Positions 25,004 through 33,122 of a stretch of 64,000 bases of DNA are shown piece after piece. Under the pieces are notes generated by a model that worked only from the letters and a program-made list of their open reading frames with translations, was not told the origin of the DNA and did no database searches. The stretch is from Streptomyces sp. NBC_00457 (GTDB lineage: Bacteria; Actinomycetota; Actinomycetes; Streptomycetales; Streptomycetaceae): positions 3,968,001 through 4,032,000 of the forward strand of contig NZ_CP107905.1 in the NCBI RefSeq assembly GCF_036014015.1, written 5' to 3'. A program made the position numbers and the translations under genes. Position 1 is the stretch's first letter; each line of letters begins with the position of its first letter.

Positions 25004-26182
25004 TCAGTAGACCGGCTTGCTCGGCTCGATCTGGTTGACCCAGCCGATCACGCCGCCGCCGACGTGCACGGCGTCCGCGAAGCCCGCGGACTTCAGCACG
25101 GCGAGGACTTCCGCACTGCGGACACCCGTCTTGCAGTGCAAGACGATCTTCTTGTCCTGCGGAAGGGTCTCCAGGGCGGTGCCCATGAGGAACTCGTTCT
25201 TCGGGATCAGCTTGGCGCCCGGGATGGAGACGATCTCGTACTCGTTGATCTCGCGGACGTCGATGATCTCGATGTTCTCGCCGTCGTCGATCCACTCCTT
25301 GAGCTGCTTGGGAGTGATCGTCGAACCGGCCGCGGCCTCCTGGGCCTCCTCGGAGACGACGCCGCAGAAGGCCTCGTAGTCGATGAGCTCGGTGACGGTC
25401 GGGTTCTCGCCGCAGACCGCGCAGTTCGGGTCCTTGCGGACCTTGACCTGGCGGTACTGCATCTCCAGGGCGTCGTAGATCATCAGGCGGCCGACGAGCG
25501 GCTCACCGATGCCCGCGAGGAGCTTGATGGCCTCGTTGACCTGGATGGAGCCGATGGACGCGCACAGCACGCCCAGGACACCGCCCTCGGCGCAGGAAGG
25601 GACCATGCCGGGGGGCGGGGGCTCCGGGTAGAGGCAGCGGTAGCAGGGGCCGTGCTCGGACCAGAAGACGGAGGCCTGACCGTCGAAGCGGTAGATCGAA
25701 CCCCAGACGTACGGCTTGTTCAGCAGCACGCAGGCGTCGTTGACCAGGTAGCGGGTCGCGAAGTTGTCCGTGCCGTCGACGATCAGGTCGTACTGGCTGA
25801 AGATGTCCATCACGTTGTCGGCCTCGAGCCGCTCCTCGTGAAGGACCACGTTCACGTACGGGTTGATGCCCTTGACGGAGTCACGGGCCGACTCGGCCTT
25901 GGAGCGGCCGATGTCGGCCTGGCTGTGGATGATCTGGCGCTGCAGGTTCGACTCGTCGACCTCGTCGAACTCGACGATGCCGAGGGTGCCGACGCCCGCG
26001 GCGGCCAGGTACATCAGCGCCGGCGAGCCCAGGCCGCCGGCGCCCACACAGAGCACCTTGGCGTTCTTCAGCCGCTTCTGCCCGTCCATCCCGACGTCAG
26101 GGATGATCAGGTGACGGGAGTACCTGCGGACCTCGTCTACGGTGAGCTCAGGAGCTGGCTCGACCAGGGGTGGCAGCGACAC
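25004..26182 (-). CDS. moeZ: adenylyltransferase/sulfurtransferase MoeZ
   Basis: A 392-residue fusion. The N-terminal MoeB/ThiF domain has VGAGGLGSPALMYLAAAG (about 46-63), the DGTDNFATRYLVND segment and two zinc CxxC pairs (CYRCLYP, NCAVCGE); the cysteine of CAEGGVLG is the E1-type position. The C-terminal rhodanese domain carries the persulfide cysteine in LHCKTGVRSAE (about 350). MoeZ activates the C-termini of ubiquitin-like sulfur-carrier proteins and loads sulfur for molybdopterin, thiotemplated amino acids and 2-thiosugars. Start GTG at 26182. Confidence 0.95.
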   Translation of the reverse strand: MSLPPLVEPAPELTVDEVRRYSRHLIIPDVGMDGQKRLKNAKVLCVGAGGLGSPALMYLAAAGVGTLGIVEFDEVDESNLQRQIIHSQADIGRSKAESARDSVKGINPYVNVVLHEERLEADNVMDIFSQYDLIVDGTDNFATRYLVNDACVLLNKPYVWGSIYRFDGQASVFWSEHGPCYRCLYPEPPPPGMVPSCAEGGVLGVLCASIGSIQVNEAIKLLAGIGEPLVGRLMIYDALEMQYRQVKVRKDPNCAVCGENPTVTELIDYEAFCGVVSEEAQEAAAGSTITPKQLKEWIDDGENIEIIDVREINEYEIVSIPGAKLIPKNEFLMGTALETLPQDKKIVLHCKTGVRSAEVLAVLKSAGFADAVHVGGGVIGWVNQIEPSKPVY

Positions 26183-26245: not shown

Positions 26246-26995
26246 TCATTCCGAGACACCCGTTCCGACCCGCGAGACGATCTCATCCCAGTAGCCGGGC
26301 ATCGTCTCCCAGGGGTCGGTGCGGCCGCCCTGGTCCGTGCGGTCGGTGAACCAGATCGTCGAGGCCCCCTGCCAGCGGGCGATGCGCAGGGCCTCGTCGA
26401 GGTGGCCGAGGGGTACTCCGTGCACCAAGTGGCAGAAGCGCTCGGGCGGGTGGTCGGCGGTCCACTCCGCCACCTGCGACCAGCGGTAGTCGCTCCACGG
26501 GCCGGAGAAGGTGACCAGTTGGTCGGCGCTCTCGGCGTAGCCGGGGTGGGGATGGGTGCCGTGGCCGAGGACGATGTGGGGGTCGTCACTGATCGCGCGG
26601 AGCGTGGTGGTCGTGCGGTGGACCTCCGGGAGCGCGGCGCCTTCGGTGGGACAGCGGTCCAGGAGGAAGCCGTCGACCTGGTACCAGTCGAGATAGCGGT
26701 GCGCTTCGGAGATCAGCTCACCGAAGACCCGGGCGCCGTAGGTGGTGTCGAGGTGGCCGAGGACGCGCAGGCCCGCGTTGCGGAGCCGGCCGGCCGCTTC
26801 CAGGCAGTGCGGGTCGGGGCGGCTGCCCGGGCCGTCGGCGACGTTGAGGACGGCCCAGTGCACCGGCGTGCCGGGGCGGGTGAGTTCGGCCCACTCGGCG
26901 GGGGCGACGAGGGGGTGCGCGAAACCCGGGATGCCGAAGCCGGTGCGCAGGTCAGTACTGGCAGTGCTCGAATTGGTGCTGGTCAGATGCGGCAT
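26246..26995 (-). CDS. spherulation-specific family 4 (Sph3-like, GH135-type) protein
   Basis: A 249-residue protein. GFGIPGFAHPLVAPAEWAEL at the N-terminus, HWAVLNVADGPGSRPD, LGHLDTTYGAR and WYQVDGFLLDRCPTEG give the TIM-barrel pattern of the spherulin-4 family, whose fungal member Sph3 is a GH135 hydrolase acting on galactosaminogalactan. The acidic residues in VDGFLLDRC are the likely catalytic region. No signal peptide is visible, which is odd for a hydrolase of an exported polymer. Its first 13 bases overlap the end of the epimerase gene, so the two are coupled. Confidence 0.8.
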   Translation of the reverse strand: MPHLTSTNSSTASTDLRTGFGIPGFAHPLVAPAEWAELTRPGTPVHWAVLNVADGPGSRPDPHCLEAAGRLRNAGLRVLGHLDTTYGARVFGELISEAHRYLDWYQVDGFLLDRCPTEGAALPEVHRTTTTLRAISDDPHIVLGHGTHPHPGYAESADQLVTFSGPWSDYRWSQVAEWTADHPPERFCHLVHGVPLGHLDEALRIARWQGASTIWFTDRTDQGGRTDPWETMPGYWDEIVSRVGTGVSE

Positions 26996-27942
26996 GCCGC
27001 CTCCATCCAGATGTCGGCGAGGGATTCTTCGAGGTTGATCCGGGGGCGCCAGCCGAGCCGGTCGCGTGCGGTGCGGACATCGGCCTGCTGCCAGCTGCCG
27101 CAGCCGTCCGGGTACGGGTACGCGACGGGGGCCGCGTGGTCCGATTCGGAGCGGGGGTGGCCGATGGTGGCCCTCAAGGGGCCTGGGTGCCCGTCGAGTT
27201 CATGGAGGGCCCCGCCGTATCCGGCCACGCGCGCGAGGACCGCCGCGGCGTCACGGAGACGGACGGCGCGTCCCGAGCCGATGTTGATGACGCCCTGCGC
27301 GGCGGAGAGCGAGGCGGCGTGCACGGCGCGGGCGACGTCGCGGACGTCGATGAAGTCGCGCTGGACGCCGAGGCCGCCGAGTTTGAGTTCGCCGTCGCCG
27401 GACTGCATGGCGCGGCGCATGGCCTCCGCCAGGCGGCCGAGCGGGGAGCCGGCGGGGGTGCCGGGGCCCGCCGGTGAGAAGACGCGGAGGACCACGGCGT
27501 CCAGGCCGGAGCCGAGGACGAGTTCGGTGGCGGCGAGTTTGCTGACGCCGTACGGGCCGCCGGGGCGGGGCACGGCGTCCTCGGCCGTGGAGGAGCCGGG
27601 CTGGCTGGGCCCGTACTCGGCGCCGCAGCCGATCTGGACGAGGCGGGCGCCGCAGCCGCTGCGGCGAAGAGCCTCGCAGACCGTGGCCACGGCGACGGTG
27701 TTGTGGCGGGTGAGTTCGCGGGCGCCGCCTCGGGTGGCGCCGGCACAGTTGACGACGACGCCGGGGTGCACCGCGTCGAGGAAGCGGGTGAGCGCGCCGG
27801 GGCTGCCGGACGCGAGGTCGAAGCGGACGTCCGCGTCGTCGCCGCGGCCGAGCGCGGTGAGCTGGACGGCCGGGTCGGCGAGCAGACGGTCGGCGACGAA
27901 GCGGCCGAGGTAGCCGTTGGCTCCGATCAGCAGGACCCTCAT
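26983..27942 (-). CDS. NAD-dependent sugar-nucleotide epimerase/dehydratase
   Basis: A 319-residue extended SDR protein, ATG at 27942 (MRVLLIGANGYLGRFVADRL). Visible elements: the GxxGxxG dinucleotide loop GANGYLG, CAGATRGG, and the active-site tyrosine and lysine in GPYGVSKLAATE, then QRDFIDVRDVARAV and INIGSGRAV. Substrate is not readable from sequence. By context it could supply the building block (for example UDP-GalNAc from UDP-GlcNAc) for the PelF-like glycosyltransferase upstream, an inference. It overlaps the Sph3-like gene by 13 bases. Confidence 0.85.
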   Translation of the reverse strand: MRVLLIGANGYLGRFVADRLLADPAVQLTALGRGDDADVRFDLASGSPGALTRFLDAVHPGVVVNCAGATRGGARELTRHNTVAVATVCEALRRSGCGARLVQIGCGAEYGPSQPGSSTAEDAVPRPGGPYGVSKLAATELVLGSGLDAVVLRVFSPAGPGTPAGSPLGRLAEAMRRAMQSGDGELKLGGLGVQRDFIDVRDVARAVHAASLSAAQGVINIGSGRAVRLRDAAAVLARVAGYGGALHELDGHPGPLRATIGHPRSESDHAAPVAYPYPDGCGSWQQADVRTARDRLGWRPRINLEESLADIWMEAACRI

Positions 27943-28075
27943 CGGGCGGCTCCCGGGACCGAGGTTCCGGGTCGGGAGGTGATCATCTGGGGTTCTCCTT
28001 CTCGGGGGTGGTGGTTCGGGGCGGCCGGCATACAGCCGACCGGCCGGGGTGCGTGTCGCCAGCTGTCGCGCCGTG

Positions 28076-28376
28076 CGCATGACGACTCGTCCGGTGCGGA
28101 CGCGGCATGGGGCCTCGTCCGATGCGGGCGTGGCACAGCGACTCGTGATGCCCACATGGGACGGCGACTTGTCCGGTGTGCGCTTGGCACGGCGACGCGT
28201 CCAGTGCTCGTCTCATGGCGACGCCCGATCGCGCGTGGCGCGGCGACCGGTCCGGTGCGCGTCTCATGGCGCCCCGTTCGATCGCGCGTGGCACGGCGAC
28301 TCGTCCGATGTGCGTGGCACGACTCCTCGTCCGACGCGCGTCTCATGGCGACCCGTCCGATCGCGCGTGGGCCGAC
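28076..28376. repeat. degenerate 26-28-bp tandem repeat block
   Basis: About eleven imperfect head-to-tail units of 25-28 bases with cores such as CGTGGCACGGCGACTCGTCC and CGTCTCATGGCGACCCGTCC, followed by GATCGCG or GATGTG. The GGCACGGCGAC and CTCATGGCGAC variants tend to alternate, giving a ~53-base higher-order unit. It fills the gap between the membrane-protein gene (whose stop codon lies inside it, at 28343) and the epimerase gene. Frames across it give only low-complexity peptides. Not CRISPR: there are no unique spacers. Confidence 0.75.
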
Positions 28377-29626
28377 GCCTTCGTCAGTCGGCGGTTCGCG
28401 TGGAGCAGGAGGGTCAGGGCCGCGGCTCCGCAGGTGAGGGCGGGGACGCTGCCGGGGCCCCAGGTTTCGACGAGCGTGTCGACCGGGGCGGTCAGGAAGC
28501 CGCAGCCGGGGAGGCGGCCCGCGAAGACCGTGGCCAGGGCCGCTCCTTCGACCGTCGCCGTCGCGATGAGGACGACTGCGGGGGCGTGCGTGAAGCCGTG
28601 GGCGGTGAGGAGGCGGGCCAGGAACAGGAGGGCGCCGAGGGTGACGGTCTGGGCGTAGGCCGCGGGCTCGTCCAAGGCGGCGCCGGTCAGGGCGAGGAGG
28701 GCGGTAAGGAGGCATAGGAACAGAGCGACCGTGCCGCACAGCAGGGGTCGTACGGAGGAGGTGAACTCGTTCAGGCCACGACTGACCGTCAGTTTGCGGC
28801 GGGCTCGTGCGGCGAAGAGGTGGGCGCTCCACGCCGCGGGGGCGCAGGCCAGGGTAAGGGCGAGGACCGGTGCGGTGGCGAGGGGCCAGGGGCCGCCGTC
28901 CGTGGCGCCGGTGGGCAGGTCGTCGGGTCCTCCGGCCACGGCCGCGCGGAGCAGTCCGTCGCCGAGGACGGCGTAGGCCACCAGCCACCAGGTCCACAGG
29001 CCACTGCCGGGTTCGGGCGAGCGGCCCTTCGGGGCGAACGGGCCGCGGGACAGGGCCGCGCGGATGCCCAGAGCCACGGCCAGGACGCCGACGGCCGCCG
29101 TGATCAGGCGTGGCTGGCCGTGGGTGAGGCGCAGGCCGGCCAACGTGGCCGCGCACAGTGCGCCCGGCAGCAGGGTGAGCAGCGCCCAGTCGGCTCGGAG
29201 CCGGAGGGCTGTCGGCGGCGTGGGGCGGTGGGTCGTCTCGCCGTCACGCGGGACACGGGCGTACATCTCCTCCGCCAGGGAGAAGACGTCCCGGTGACGG
29301 AAGCGGGACGCGGTGCGGTCGGTGACACCGTGGGCCTCCAGGCCCGCCGCGATCTCCAGGGGATCCACGGCGCGTTCGCACAGCTCACGGTGACGGTGCA
29401 TCAGTGCCTTCACCGGATCCGCGGCAGCGGCACGGCGCCCGGGAACGTGGGCCGGGGCAGGGTCGGGAGCGGGCTTGTCGGGCTCCGGCTCCGTATCGCC
29501 CTGTGCGTGCGGCTGCCCGGCATCGCTCAAGCAGGCGGCTCCCGACAGCCACTCCTCCGAGCGCGTGTCCCACGCTCCGACGCCGGCCGGTGTGCCGGGG
29601 CGGTCCAGTTCGCCCAGGTCGCTCAT
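28343..29626 (-). CDS. polytopic membrane protein of the PelF-like cluster
   Basis: A 427-residue protein. The first ~145 residues are soluble and polar; about eight membrane helices follow (for example ADWALLTLLPGALCAATLAG, LITAAVGVLAVALGIRAAL, LWTWWLVAYAVLGDGLLRA, ending LTCGAAALTLLLHANRRLT). I recognise no family. Its ATG overlaps the stop codon of the PelF-like gene (ATGA, 29623-29626), so they are coupled. It could play the part of PelG, the 12-helix Pel transporter, but is shorter and lacks a resemblance I can point to. The last few codons and the stop are inside the tandem-repeat block. Confidence 0.8.
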   Translation of the reverse strand: MSDLGELDRPGTPAGVGAWDTRSEEWLSGAACLSDAGQPHAQGDTEPEPDKPAPDPAPAHVPGRRAAAADPVKALMHRHRELCERAVDPLEIAAGLEAHGVTDRTASRFRHRDVFSLAEEMYARVPRDGETTHRPTPPTALRLRADWALLTLLPGALCAATLAGLRLTHGQPRLITAAVGVLAVALGIRAALSRGPFAPKGRSPEPGSGLWTWWLVAYAVLGDGLLRAAVAGGPDDLPTGATDGGPWPLATAPVLALTLACAPAAWSAHLFAARARRKLTVSRGLNEFTSSVRPLLCGTVALFLCLLTALLALTGAALDEPAAYAQTVTLGALLFLARLLTAHGFTHAPAVVLIATATVEGAALATVFAGRLPGCGFLTAPVDTLVETWGPGSVPALTCGAAALTLLLHANRRLTKASAHARSDGSP

Positions 29627-31356
29627 CGTGCTCCCTCCGTCGCGGGTACGGGGCCGCCCGCGCGTACCGGCGGCCGTCCCGTCGCCCAGCCGGGGCCGCC
29701 GCGGGCCGCCACGCGGGCTGCCGGGTCGGTCCAGCGGCCGGGGACGTGGGCTTCGGCGGGGTCACCGAACGGCAGGGGTTCTCCGGTGGCGTCGAGGACG
29801 ACACGGCGGACCGGGCACTGCGAGACGATCTCCAGGTAAATGCCGTGAAATGCCGCGGTGTTCTGCTCGACCGTGAAGAGTTCGAGCGCGCGTGCGCGGG
29901 CGGCGGCGCCCAGGCGTGCACGGCGCTCGGGATCGCGCAGCAGCGCCACGCACGCCTCGGCGAGCGCCCGCGGATTGCGCGGCGGCACGACCAGTCCGGT
30001 GCCGCCGATGACCTCCACGACGGCGCCGACGTCGGTGGACACCGTGGCGCGACCGCAGAACATGGCCTCGACGAGGCCGATCGGGAAGCCCTCCACGACG
30101 CTGGACAAGACCGCCACCGCTCCCCCGGCGTACGCCTCGGCGAGCGTCGGAGCCTCGGGGCCGCCGATCTCCTCGAAGGCCACCGGGTTACGGCCGACCG
30201 CGTGCGGGCCCTCCGCCTCGTCCGGGAAGAGCTGGGCGGCGAGTGCCCTGCAGTGGGCCAGGTAGGCCGTGCCCTCGGCGCCCGACGGGGTACCGACGAT
30301 CCGCAGCCGGGTCTTCGGTTCCTCCTTGCGCACCTCCGCGAAGGCGTGCAGCAGGGAGACCAGATCCTTGGTGGGTTCGATCCGGCCGACCCAGACCAGG
30401 GTGTCCGGATCCACGCACTCCGGCGCCTCGCCCACCTCGGCGAAGCGGGCGGCCTCCATGCCCGGGTAGACCGTGCGCAGCTTGTCGCGATCGGCGCCGC
30501 AGCGTTCCTGCCAGCGGCGGGCGTGCGAGTTGCCGGACGTGATGACGGCCGCCCGGCGGTAGATCTCGGCGGCGAGCCGACCGTGGAAGGCCGCGAGCAG
30601 GGCCCGTACGGCGGGCGCCGCGTCGCCTGCGGTCAGGTAGTGCGTGCGCAGCTGTACGCCGTACTCGGTCACCAGCAGCGGTACGCCCGAGAAGTGGCGC
30701 GCGACCAGCCCCGGCAGGGCGGCCGGGCCGCCGGACGCCGCGTGGCACAGGTCGACCGAGCCGAGCCCGTCGTCCTCGTACCAGTCGAGCGACAGGGGGC
30801 GCAGGGCGCGTTCCAGATGCGCGGCGACGGTGAGGAGTTCGGGTACGCGCGCCTCCCGCGCCGTGCGCAGGGCGCCGCGCGCGCGACAGGCGCGTTCGAG
30901 AGCGCGTACGGCGGTCTCGGAGCGGAGCGCTCCCACCAGGCCGCCCTCGTCGCGGGCGAGTTCGGCGAGCCCGTACAGCGCGCTGCCGAAACGGTCCGCC
31001 TCGGAGGTGGCGCCTGCCTCAGAGGCGGTCCCTGCATCAGGGGTGGCCTCCGCCCCGATGCCCCCCGTCGCGCACACGGCAGCCGCCAACTCGCCGTAGC
31101 AGTCGGCGAAACGCCGCCGCGCCCGCCGCCCGTACCGGACACCGTCGTCCTCGGCCGTCCACAGCGGCGCCGTCCGCACCCGGCCGACCTGCGACGGCAG
31201 CGGCACCCAGCCCTCGTCCTCCTGGCGTGCACTGCGGCTGAGCGCGTAGACATCGAACTCGTGCTGCTCGAGCCCGCGCACGAGCCGGTCGCACCAGAGC
31301 CTGGCGTCACCGCTCACATACGGATAGCCACCCTCCGTAAGCAGTCCGATGCGCAC
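29623..31356 (-). CDS. GT4 glycosyltransferase with DUF3492 (PelF-like)
   Basis: About 577 residues from the GTG at 31356 (RIGLLTEGGYPYVSGDARLW); a longer frame to 31464 lacks support. The N-terminal DUF3492 signature with LTEGGYPYVSG and HEFDVYALS is that of PelF, the cytoplasmic glycosyltransferase that polymerises Pel polysaccharide. The GT4 C-terminal lobe has VWVGRIEPTKDLVSLLHAFA, and the donor-binding acidic motif in VVEGFPIGLVEAMFCGR. A low-complexity insert (ATPDAGTASEAGATSEAD) interrupts the N-terminal domain. PelF uses UDP-sugars (GalNAc/GlcNAc). Confidence 0.88.
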   Translation of the reverse strand: MRIGLLTEGGYPYVSGDARLWCDRLVRGLEQHEFDVYALSRSARQEDEGWVPLPSQVGRVRTAPLWTAEDDGVRYGRRARRRFADCYGELAAAVCATGGIGAEATPDAGTASEAGATSEADRFGSALYGLAELARDEGGLVGALRSETAVRALERACRARGALRTAREARVPELLTVAAHLERALRPLSLDWYEDDGLGSVDLCHAASGGPAALPGLVARHFSGVPLLVTEYGVQLRTHYLTAGDAAPAVRALLAAFHGRLAAEIYRRAAVITSGNSHARRWQERCGADRDKLRTVYPGMEAARFAEVGEAPECVDPDTLVWVGRIEPTKDLVSLLHAFAEVRKEEPKTRLRIVGTPSGAEGTAYLAHCRALAAQLFPDEAEGPHAVGRNPVAFEEIGGPEAPTLAEAYAGGAVAVLSSVVEGFPIGLVEAMFCGRATVSTDVGAVVEVIGGTGLVVPPRNPRALAEACVALLRDPERRARLGAAARARALELFTVEQNTAAFHGIYLEIVSQCPVRRVVLDATGEPLPFGDPAEAHVPGRWTDPAARVAARGGPGWATGRPPVRAGGPVPATEGAR

Positions 31357-31580
31357 AAGTGCACCCCCGATCTCCCGTATGGGGAGCCGCCGTTGACTCG
31401 ACGGCTCGCAGCGGGAAGAACGTATGCGGACAAGGCGGTGGCGCGACGGACGGTTGTCCATCACGCCACCAAAAGGGGTGAACGGTCGTAACTTTCCCGT
31501 GCGGATCGCGTTCGGTCGCGCTAAGAGATCAAGCAGTTACGTTTCGTTAGGTCACGGCACGGCGGACTTCGGTGCGTGCG

Positions 31581-33122
31581 TCAACTCCCGGGATACGGCC
31601 AGGGGTTGGCCCGGCAGCGGATCCCGTCGTGGTTGAGGAACTTGGTCTGCTGCTGCATGACCGGGGCGAGGTCGCCGTTCTTGTCGCAGGTGACGTGGTT
31701 GTACTCGAGCCGGTGGCCGATCTCATGGTTGATCAGCATCTGCCGGTACGCATGCATTTGATCGCCGTACGTCTTCGACCCCTGCGCCCATCGATACGCG
31801 TTGATCATCACGCGCTCGGTCGACGCCGAGTCGCAGGACACGTTGTCCTCGGTCGTGTCCAGGCCGGACTTGGCGCACCACTCGGCGGTGGTGCCGGGGC
31901 TGGCGAGCGTGATCACGAAGTCGGGCTTGCCGGAGTAGATGCGCTCGAAGGTACGGGCGCCGTTGTGGGCCCAGCTCCGGTCGTCGTTGAGCGTCTTCTG
32001 CACGGCCTGCGCGAAGAGTTCACCGTCGAGCCCCAGCCCTTGCTCCACGTCCACGCGGTAGGTGTACTTCTGTCCCGTCCCCGGGGCCTTGTCGATACCG
32101 GCGATCGCGTCGAACTTGCCCGAGCCGTCGAGCGTGGCGCTGAGCGGGTATTTCTGGTCCATCTTCTGCGCATACGTCAGCGTCGCCGCGCTCGGCGCCG
32201 TGGAGGGCGTCGGCTGCCCGTCCGCGCGCGCGGCACCGTCACGGGCGTCCCGGGCCTGGTCGGTGGCGGACTGGGACTGCACGCCGTCGTCGTCACGGCT
32301 GCCGGTGACCTGGCCGGCCACGACGACGGCCAGCACGGTCGTGACCGCGAGGGCCGCGATCCCCGTGAAGGTCCGCCCCTTGCCGCCCTTGGCCTGCGCG
32401 GGCTCGCCGGTGGGCGGCGCGTCGTCGGCGTCGCCCTCGGTGTCGTTCGCGATGCCGGTCGCCCCGGACCAGTGGGTGACGGAGGCGTACGGGTCGGAGG
32501 AGGTGGGCGCACGGGGTGAGAAGACGTCGACGTCCGCACCGAAGGCGTCGACGTAGTCCTGGCGTGGCCCGCCCGGAGGCGCCTGCCGCTGTCGCGGTAT
32601 CGAGGCGCCGGGCCCGGCCGGAGCCCCGTACCCACCCCCGCCGCGCCCCCTCGGCTCACCCCAGCCCCCACCGGGTTCCCGCTGCTCGGGGTGGCCACCC
32701 CGAACTTGAGGGACCCCGCGCGCGGGTGTGCCGTCGGCATAACGGGGGGTGCCGTGAGCGGGAGTGCCGTCGGGAAGCCGCGGGAAACCATGCGCAGGGG
32801 TTCCGTCGGGAAGCCTGGGGAAACCATGCGCGGGCGTCCCATCCGCAAGCCTCGGAAAGCCGTGGGCCGGCGTGCCTTCGGGAATCCTGGGAACACCCCG
32901 AGCGGGCGCCCCATCCGCAAGCCTCGGAAAGCCGTGCGCCGGCGTGCCGTCAGGAATCCTCGGCGCACCGCGACCCGAGGGACCGTCAGGAGCCCTCCCC
33001 ACACCCCGAACAGAGGAACCGTCAGGACCCCTCGGCGCACTCCGAGGCGCTGGAGTGCCCTCGGAAGGCTCACCCTTGACCGCGCCCTTGGGCGCAGGTC
33101 CGCGCCGACTGTGGCGTCCCAC
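31581..33122 (-). CDS. DUF3152 zincin-like membrane-anchored protein with 12-residue repeats
   Basis: A 513-residue protein. Residues ~1-200 are disordered and include seven 12-residue repeats (PDGTPAHGFPRL and variants, residues 57-140). A basic/Gln-Arg segment and one membrane helix near 255-275 (GIAALAVTTVLAVVVAGQV) follow, so the rest should be outside the cell. The DUF3152 domain ends with INHEIGHRLEYNHVTC, a HExxHxxxxxH metzincin-type zinc site, and paired cysteines. Homologues occur across actinobacteria (Rv3207c in M. tuberculosis). Protease activity is predicted, not shown. Confidence 0.88.
   Translation of the reverse strand: MGRHSRRGPAPKGAVKGEPSEGTPAPRSAPRGPDGSSVRGVGRAPDGPSGRGAPRIPDGTPAHGFPRLADGAPARGVPRIPEGTPAHGFPRLADGTPAHGFPRLPDGTPAHGFPRLPDGTPAHGTPRYADGTPARGVPQVRGGHPEQREPGGGWGEPRGRGGGGYGAPAGPGASIPRQRQAPPGGPRQDYVDAFGADVDVFSPRAPTSSDPYASVTHWSGATGIANDTEGDADDAPPTGEPAQAKGGKGRTFTGIAALAVTTVLAVVVAGQVTGSRDDDGVQSQSATDQARDARDGAARADGQPTPSTAPSAATLTYAQKMDQKYPLSATLDGSGKFDAIAGIDKAPGTGQKYTYRVDVEQGLGLDGELFAQAVQKTLNDDRSWAHNGARTFERIYSGKPDFVITLASPGTTAEWCAKSGLDTTEDNVSCDSASTERVMINAYRWAQGSKTYGDQMHAYRQMLINHEIGHRLEYNHVTCDKNGDLAPVMQQQTKFLNHDGIRCRANPWPYPGS
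32703..32954 (-). repeat. 36-bp in-frame repeats in DUF3152 gene
   Basis: Seven 36-base units encoding 12-residue repeats of the type PDGTPAHGFPRL, with A/P/E at the first position and F/V/T at the ninth. Older, more degenerate units extend N-terminally. The array lies in the predicted cytoplasmic disordered region. Confidence 0.85.

Follow-up and report, generated by a model that had tools for sequence, protein, structure and literature searches.

A genus-wide PelF-like locus of Streptomyces with a degenerate spherulin-4 protein: a candidate developmental envelope-glycan pathway

The subject of this analysis is a 64,000-nt stretch of Streptomyces sp. NBC_00457 DNA (contig NZ_CP107905.1, positions 3,968,001 to 4,032,000; herein "the window"), in which four genes encode a PelF-like GT4 glycosyltransferase, a multi-spanning membrane protein, an extended short-chain dehydrogenase/reductase (SDR), and a Sph3-fold protein of the GH135/Spherulin4 type (designated Sph4). 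On balance, we favour reading this locus as a developmental envelope-glycan pathway in which the GH135 protein is a non-catalytic partner, the locus itself being an old, genus-wide, Streptomyces-core paralogue (deacetylase-less and on a long branch) of the actinobacterial Agd3/PelF operons. A preceding sequence-only reading had proposed instead a Pel/galactosaminogalactan (GAG)-like locus for an undescribed GalNAc-type polymer, with a C4-epimerase as supplier and a Sph3-like hydrolase as cutter. Four genes at the positions given there were indeed recovered, all on the minus strand, along with a conserved leader:

29623..31356, minus strand: PelF-like GT4 glycosyltransferase (P0004); DUF3492 plus GT4 (PF11997, 100.2 bits; PF13692, 85.8 bits), with EX7E glutamates
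28343..29626, minus strand: PelF-coupled membrane protein (P0003); N-terminal helical domain and ~9 membrane helices in an AlphaFold2 (AF2) model
26983..27942, minus strand: extended SDR (P0002); PF01370 Epimerase, 125.9 bits; nearest PDB entry 2pk3 (RMD); Cys106 replaces the SDR serine
26246..26995, minus strand: predicted cytosolic Sph3-fold (GH135/Spherulin4) protein (P0001, Sph4); PF12138; Ser164 replaces the acid/base Glu
31348..31486, minus strand: leader 5' of the PelF-like gene, extending 9 nt into it; covariance model R1, 164.8 bits

RESULTS

A gene set kept throughout the genus

Loci of the window's kind are herein called type A, and sister operons type B. Across a class-level sample of 196 genomes, DUF3492 was found in 23, i.e., 19 of the same genus (own genome included) and 4 others, with every genus member in the sample carrying it. 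The order DUF3152 gene–PelF-like–membrane–SDR–Sph4–moeZ recurs, with the arrangement beside moeZ kept in all 18 other genus loci; by tblastn, the PelF-like gene and the SDR were each detected at 18/18 of these, and the membrane gene and Sph4 at 17/18 each, with moeZ likewise present at 18/18. The membrane gene missed by tblastn at L067 is present as a called gene with 37% identity, and the one locus at which tblastn did not find Sph4 is L068. These figures supersede an early Pfam first look that had placed Spherulin4 near the locus in 7/19 genomes. The expectation that the gene set co-occurs in relatives was thus borne out across the genus (PelF-like and SDR in 19/19 sampled genomes, membrane protein in 18–19, Sph4 in 18). 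Seventeen further genus genomes, those with the weakest PelF match in an order-level sample of 197, carry the SDR in every case (80–95% identity), adjoined by a type A Sph4 in 16/17 (G347 being the exception); in that sample, the 13 genomes outside the family gave only generic GT4-level matches (best E from 1.6e-11 to 9.6e-19). The window's own genome (10.8 Mb, one contig) holds a single DUF3492 and a single Spherulin4 match, both at the locus.

All four genes are under purifying selection. Over seven pairs each, dN/dS was lowest for the SDR (0.02–0.17), with ranges of 0.19–0.39 for Sph4, 0.22–0.32 for the PelF-like gene, and 0.38–0.54 for the membrane gene.

A Sph3 fold that has lost its catalytic glutamate

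P0001 is a GH135-type protein both by profile (PF12138 Spherulin4, 81.6 bits versus a cut-off of 30.2) and by its Sph3 barrel. The equivalent of the Sph3 acid/base Glu222 is nonetheless found in 0/34 type A copies (Ser164 in the window), and that of the nucleophile Asp166 is kept in 19/34 (Asp113 in the window) and lost in 15/34; both residues are present in 46/46 distinct sister-operon copies. No signal peptide or hydrophobic N-terminus was detected in Sph4 by sequence. Type A Sph4 is therefore probably a pseudo-hydrolase, its catalytic Glu having been lost yet purifying selection maintained. Of the original "Sph3-like hydrolase" designation, the fold holds and the hydrolase is not supported. 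Five other residues (H148, R171, Q174, H192, and D218) are invariant in 18/18 type A Sph4 proteins, whereas they vary in 15 type B proteins.

An RMD-like SDR with a cysteine in place of the catalytic serine

The "sugar-nucleotide epimerase" of the sequence-only reading remains a sugar-nucleotide SDR (PF01370), but its designation as a C4-epimerase is not supported. The best PDB match to P0002 is 2pk3, the GDP-6-deoxy-D-lyxo-4-hexulose reductase RMD (126 bits by profile, 76 by single sequence), compared with 89 and 49.5 bits, respectively, for the best UDP-glucose 4-epimerase in the PDB. The protein thus appears closest, though distantly so at 76 bits, to GDP-4-keto-6-deoxyhexose reductases. 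NCBIfam leaves the subfamily open, as RmlD (34.8 bits) and Fcl (35.0) score no better than GalE (33.2 bits, cut-off 262.3), with all far below their cut-offs. The SDR serine is Cys in 31/31 genus copies (19/19 and 12/12; Cys106 in the window) and Ser in 11/11 type B rows as well as in L242, the moeZ-adjacent copy of a different genus in the family; the Tyr and Lys are kept in 19/19 type A copies.

A PelF-like transferase coupled to a multi-spanning membrane protein

Assignment of P0004 (N-terminal start VRIGLLTEGGYPYVSG) as a PelF-like GT4 enzyme stands, with PF11997 DUF3492 scoring 100.2 bits versus a cut-off of 23.3, and both EX7E catalytic glutamates kept in 19/19 type A PelF-like proteins. 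The NF038011 PelF profile reaches 98.9 bits, narrowly below its cut-off of 100, leaving the protein just outside the PelF equivalog.

The AF2 model of P0003 (mean pLDDT 76) displays ~9 membrane helices and a conserved N-terminal helical domain (about residues 71–124), so that the earlier description of an eight-helix protein is right as to multiple spans and not as to their number. P0003 has no Pfam match up to E 1; among 83 relatives searched at E ≤1, 19 families appeared, each with ≤5 members and a best E of 0.0089, which we take as chance. Type A and type B membrane proteins are homologous (profile probability 99.7%). A scan of named genomes (537 relatives, from which the best 80 loci were kept) used a query alignment led by a type B protein and hence favours type B; among those 80, the membrane homologue directly follows PelF in 76.

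The stated lack of a PelG-like gene was upheld, as nothing in the own genome matched PelG at E ≤0.001. As a candidate PelG relative by sequence, the membrane protein was rejected: its profile gave 0.1% against a profile of 39 PelG proteins, with unrelated permease controls at 0.2% and the positive control at 99.7%. In structural comparisons the best rows were MurJ, WzxE, and MATE transporters; these matches were weak, with no Foldseek match at E <0.001, and suggest at most a weakly MOP-like fold.

A conserved leader before the PelF-like gene

A stretch of ~139 nt whose 3' end lies 9 nt within the PelF-like gene averages ~90% column conservation over 18 upstream regions. Sequence further upstream averages 67%, which is not a fair control given the different genes lying there in different loci. 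Of 19 upstream regions considered, the start-motif script missed L060, and alignment A8 omits L061 for its Ns and L062 and L068 for their divergence; the completed R1 model matches each of these four. In a 118-genome sample, R1 found one full-length copy at the same place in 10/10 genus genomes (7 of these copies, the window's among them, went into building the model, and 3 are independent of it). In the 108 non-genus genomes it gave nothing full-length, just short partial matches in 2. The 164.8-bit window match is the sole one in its genome. Over 34 supplied loci, R1 was full-length in nine type A loci outside the model (L241 included), with no match in L242 and a best type B match of 23.1 bits. 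An Rfam search of 31200–31700 returned two chance-level matches (17.3 bits, gathering 80; 16.2 bits, gathering 40) and no family. The conserved leader is new here and confined to the genus in the samples searched.

Several observations suggest that the leader folds as RNA. The window copy (31357–31500, 144 nt) folds at −72.3 kcal/mol (z −4.7), and pairing in the three helices is maintained in 97% of cells, compared with 31–59% once the partners were slid. Covariation is modest, with both-side changes in 4 pairs, a count reached by 107/500 shuffles (13/500 for the covariation cells and 10/500 for the score); RNA structure is thus suggested rather than proven, and a palindromic DNA site is the alternative. 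Since CACCCC is paired in the predicted outer stem with a GGGGGUG lying just 5' of the start codon, this stem could mask the ribosome-binding region.

Sister operons and ancestry

Eight of the 19 genus genomes also hold 1–2 type B loci (13 in total). These carry a PelF, generally accompanied by a homologous membrane protein, Sph4, and, upstream, a secreted protein of ~700 aa. Two sister-operon PelF proteins score 172 and 160.5 bits with NF038011, above its cut-off, the former being the sole one scored from the 13 genus loci. At L092, outside the genus, the ~700-aa protein matches CBM87_Agd3 (53.4 bits) and Agd3_CE (43.4) above their cut-offs; the two Streptomyces copies tried (L076 and L078) match Agd3_CE alone, below cut-off, and the L076 protein (L076:2039-4183) has no match among PDB sequences. 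A protein search for the Agd3-like protein returned 12 matches in 8/19 genomes, each at a type B locus (12/13; L082 lacks it), and none in the 11 genomes without a type B locus, own genome included. The only GH114 match in the own genome lies ~3.1 Mb from the locus.

Among the best 80 of the 537 relatives, 78 loci have PelF, 76 have the membrane gene next to it, 76 an Agd3-like gene upstream on the same strand, 72 a nucleotidyltransferase, 70 an SDR, 37 a LegB-like dehydratase, 34 Sph4, and 32 GH114. In type B operons (L076; L161–L204), a Man-1-P guanylyltransferase-like gene stands alongside the RMD-like SDR, and the LegB-like 4,6-dehydratase gene accompanies such an SDR in the 37 of these type B-biased loci. 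Because these genes pair with an RMD-like SDR, type B gene content hints that the sugar may be a 6-deoxy amino sugar and not simply GalNAc. One such operon (Agd3-PelF-membrane-nucleotidyltransferase-SDR) was observed outside the actinobacteria, in Meiothermus granaticius (Deinococcota; L151).

In a midpoint-rooted PelF tree of 55 rows (excluding L090, in which PelF is cut by the contig end), the 19 type A proteins form one clade (100/100), sister to the long L242 row (100/99). Together these join the family's type B (Agd3-operon) clade (100/96) on a long branch. In a Sph4 tree, which took 13/34 strong Sph4 rows from the named-genome scan, the 18 type A rows are resolved from the 28 of type B (100/100). 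At L242, the PelF-like, membrane, and SDR genes adjoin moeZ without Sph4 at the locus, that genome's Sph4 being of type B and on another contig. This sister-genus copy, with its SDR Ser and neither Sph4 nor a leader match, perhaps represents an earlier stage; the leader, Cys switch, and degenerate Sph4 are confined to the genus here.

At L241 (7826–10003), the PelF-like gene is cut to its N-terminus and fused in frame with the membrane gene (725-aa open reading frame), with leader, SDR, and Sph4 retained.

Spacing and neighbouring genes

The overlaps described earlier were recovered at 4 bp between the PelF-like and membrane genes (29623–29626) and 13 bp between the SDR and Sph4 genes (26983–26995). 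With starts taken from the gene caller, these are exactly 4 bp in 11/17 and exactly 13 bp in 15/16 measured pairs. By spacing, the four genes do not form one tight operon, since 400 bp (27943–28342), mostly degenerate tandem repeat, part the membrane gene from the SDR; this gap spans 99–410 bp in 17 other type A loci. No sigma-70-type promoter was found in a promoter/terminator scan, and terminator-like sites numbered 2 versus 0.9 expected. The remaining features are as follows:

28116..28385, mostly in the membrane–SDR gap: degenerate 26/53-bp tandem repeat (Tandem Repeats Finder)
25004..26182, minus strand: moeZ/moeB-like gene (ThiF plus rhodanese; PF00899, 288 bits; PF00581, 57.9 bits)
31581-33002, minus strand: DUF3152 gene, the conserved upstream neighbour of the locus, with 36/72-bp repeats (32767–33045) at the gene start

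The moeZ gene is a conserved syntenic neighbour that is not known to belong to the pathway. A cassette of four genes, similar in size from locus to locus, separates the DUF3152 gene from the PelF-like gene in 8/18 loci and is absent from the window; at L072 (2729–8238), as read from the letters alone, it resembles an oligopeptide ABC transporter.

Published data on the probable Streptomyces coelicolor counterpart

In S. coelicolor, SCO5178 is reported as moeB, a putative sulfurylase (PMC4340878, in part). Here, the PelF-like gene is separated from moeZ by three genes, and we thus infer, from gene order rather than by sequence, that SCO5174 is the PelF-like gene, SCO5175 the membrane protein, SCO5176 the SDR, and SCO5177 Sph4. 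Table 3 of PMC3610822 presents the conserved genes without known function that respond most strongly in the multinucleated mycelium (MII), where three of the four exceed 8-fold induction, with log2 values of MII versus MI at 24/48/72 h of 2.2/3.5/3.5 for SCO5174, 2.4/3.8/3.5 for SCO5175, and 2.6/3.3/3.0 for SCO5177; SCO5176 is not listed in that table. In print, these three genes appear as "Transferase" (SCO5174) and "Hypothetical protein". Transposon mutants of SCO5174 are described as having lowered actinorhodin output, and the gene is placed in a cell-envelope homeostasis group to which cslA and glxA also belong (PMC6585502). A link to aerial development, as first suggested from the window alone, thus finds backing in published MII induction, provided the gene mapping is correct.

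In the open-licence literature, we found no description of the locus as a pathway and nothing on DUF3492 in Streptomyces; for locus tags SCO5179–5183, SCO5183 alone was covered, and a paper on BldM/WhiI gave no match. "Undescribed" therefore applies at most to the present locus, as the operon kind has already been published (PMC7229062, in part).

DISCUSSION

In the reading we favour, the PelF-like GT4 would assemble a glycan at the cytosolic face, anchored by the conserved N-terminal domain of the membrane protein, which would in turn hand the glycan across the membrane. The RMD-like SDR would make or finish the nucleotide sugar. The Sph3-fold protein would remain in the cytosol and, instead of cleaving polymer, bind either the synthase or the growing glycan in a non-catalytic role, as partner or regulator. 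The gene set would be expressed in the reproductive (multinucleated/aerial) mycelium, with the leader perhaps gating translation. Of this picture, the gene content, synteny, ancestry, purifying selection, loss of catalytic residues, and conservation of the leader sequence are demonstrated; the SCO mapping, the chemistry of the glycan, the roles in export and as a non-catalytic partner, and the structure and function of the leader are inferences. More tentatively, we propose that this is a core-genome, development-specific synthase, for which a GH135 enzyme has turned non-catalytic cytosolic PelF partner, the SDR has switched Ser to Cys, and a new structured leader RNA covers the ribosome-binding region.

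Alternative 1: Instead of a polymer, the product is a short glycan or one linked to lipid or protein, with the GT4 adding a few sugars (possibly 6-deoxyhexoses via the RMD-like SDR) and the membrane protein flipping them. The affinity of the SDR for GDP-6-deoxyhexulose reductases, the guanylyltransferase-like and LegB-like dehydratase genes added in one sister operon, and the MurJ, WzxE, and MATE rows for the membrane model are all consistent with this. However, the literature treats PelF and fungal Gtb3 as synthases of polymers (PMC13254593 and PMC7229062), the gene lists place no 4,6-dehydratase or nucleotidyltransferase beside type A loci, and the membrane fold match is weak. We consider this alternative possible but somewhat doubtful.

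Alternative 2: Type A Sph4 retains enzymatic activity, e.g., as a transglycosylase or lyase, working through other residues such as the five invariant ones. Their conservation and the purifying selection on Sph4 agree with such a re-tooling; against it, the nucleophile position has also been lost in 15/34 copies and no precedent was found here, making it unlikely in our estimation.

Alternative 3: The locus is a working Pel/GAG-type GalNAc polymer pathway, with a C4-epimerase giving UDP-GalNAc and an active Sph3 hydrolase. Kinship with Pel/GAG-type operons does stand; standard Pel/GAG assembly is disfavoured, as the genome gives no Agd3-like or PelG match and the PelF score falls just short of its cut-off. 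The catalytic-residue changes (Glu222 lost in 34/34), the RMD-like rather than GalE-like SDR with its Ser-to-Cys change, and the missing deacetylase together weaken the GalNAc/hydrolase reading, as does a Sph4 that is not secreted by sequence, and we regard it as quite improbable.

That the locus is a decaying, functionless remnant of an Agd3-type operon, as the missing deacetylase, GH114, and nucleotidyltransferase, the lost catalytic residues, and the truncated PelF of L241 might imply, is very hard to credit given dN/dS values well under 1 in all four genes, presence throughout the genus sample, the conserved leader, and the published developmental induction (by the mapping above).

Should the developmental envelope-glycan reading prove correct, it would name a genus-wide envelope-glycan pathway of Streptomyces aerial growth, and provide an example, open to testing, of a polysaccharide hydrolase that has become the non-catalytic partner of a synthase. 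It would also caution that PelF and GH135 matches alone are insufficient to name a polymer.

Comparison with known systems

The nearest described relatives are the Agd3 actinobacterial operons, for which excerpts of Bamford et al. (2020; PMC7229062) report a cytoplasmic glycosyltransferase, a multi-spanning membrane protein, GH114, and sometimes spherulin-4, "Spherulin-4 annotated genes" occurring in such operons of some Actinobacteria. Type A loci have in common with these the PelF-like cytoplasmic transferase, a homologous membrane protein, an SDR, and a spherulin-4 gene. They differ by lacking Agd3 (CE18/CBM87), an adjacent GH114, the nucleotidyltransferase, and the dehydratase, by their changed Sph4 and SDR catalytic residues, and by a fixed site beside moeZ.

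With the Gram-positive pelDEADAFG operon (Whitfield et al. 2020; PMC7112168, in part), the locus has in common a DUF3492 GT4 followed by a membrane protein. It differs in having no PelG by sequence and a PelF narrowly below the equivalog cut-off; the search did not extend to PelD, PelE, or PelADA.

The Aspergillus galactosaminogalactan cluster (uge3, gtb3, agd3, sph3, ega3) likewise combines a glycosyltransferase, a membrane part, an epimerase-like SDR, and a Sph3-fold protein, a likeness drawn with no direct sequence comparison to Gtb3 or Uge3. Type A loci have no deacetylase or Ega3-type neighbour, their Sph4 is predicted to be cytosolic and lacks Glu222, and their SDR is RMD-like. At the protein level, P0001 departs from Sph3 (GH135; PDB 5c5g/5d6t) in having Ser for Glu222 and Arg for Glu167, with no signal or anchor, and P0002 departs from RMD (PDB 2pk3), its best though distant (76 bits) solved SDR relative, in having Cys for the SDR Ser. 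The catalytic residues and missing deacetylase thus argue against a standard Pel/GAG product for a locus that is nonetheless related to the Pel/GAG-type operons.

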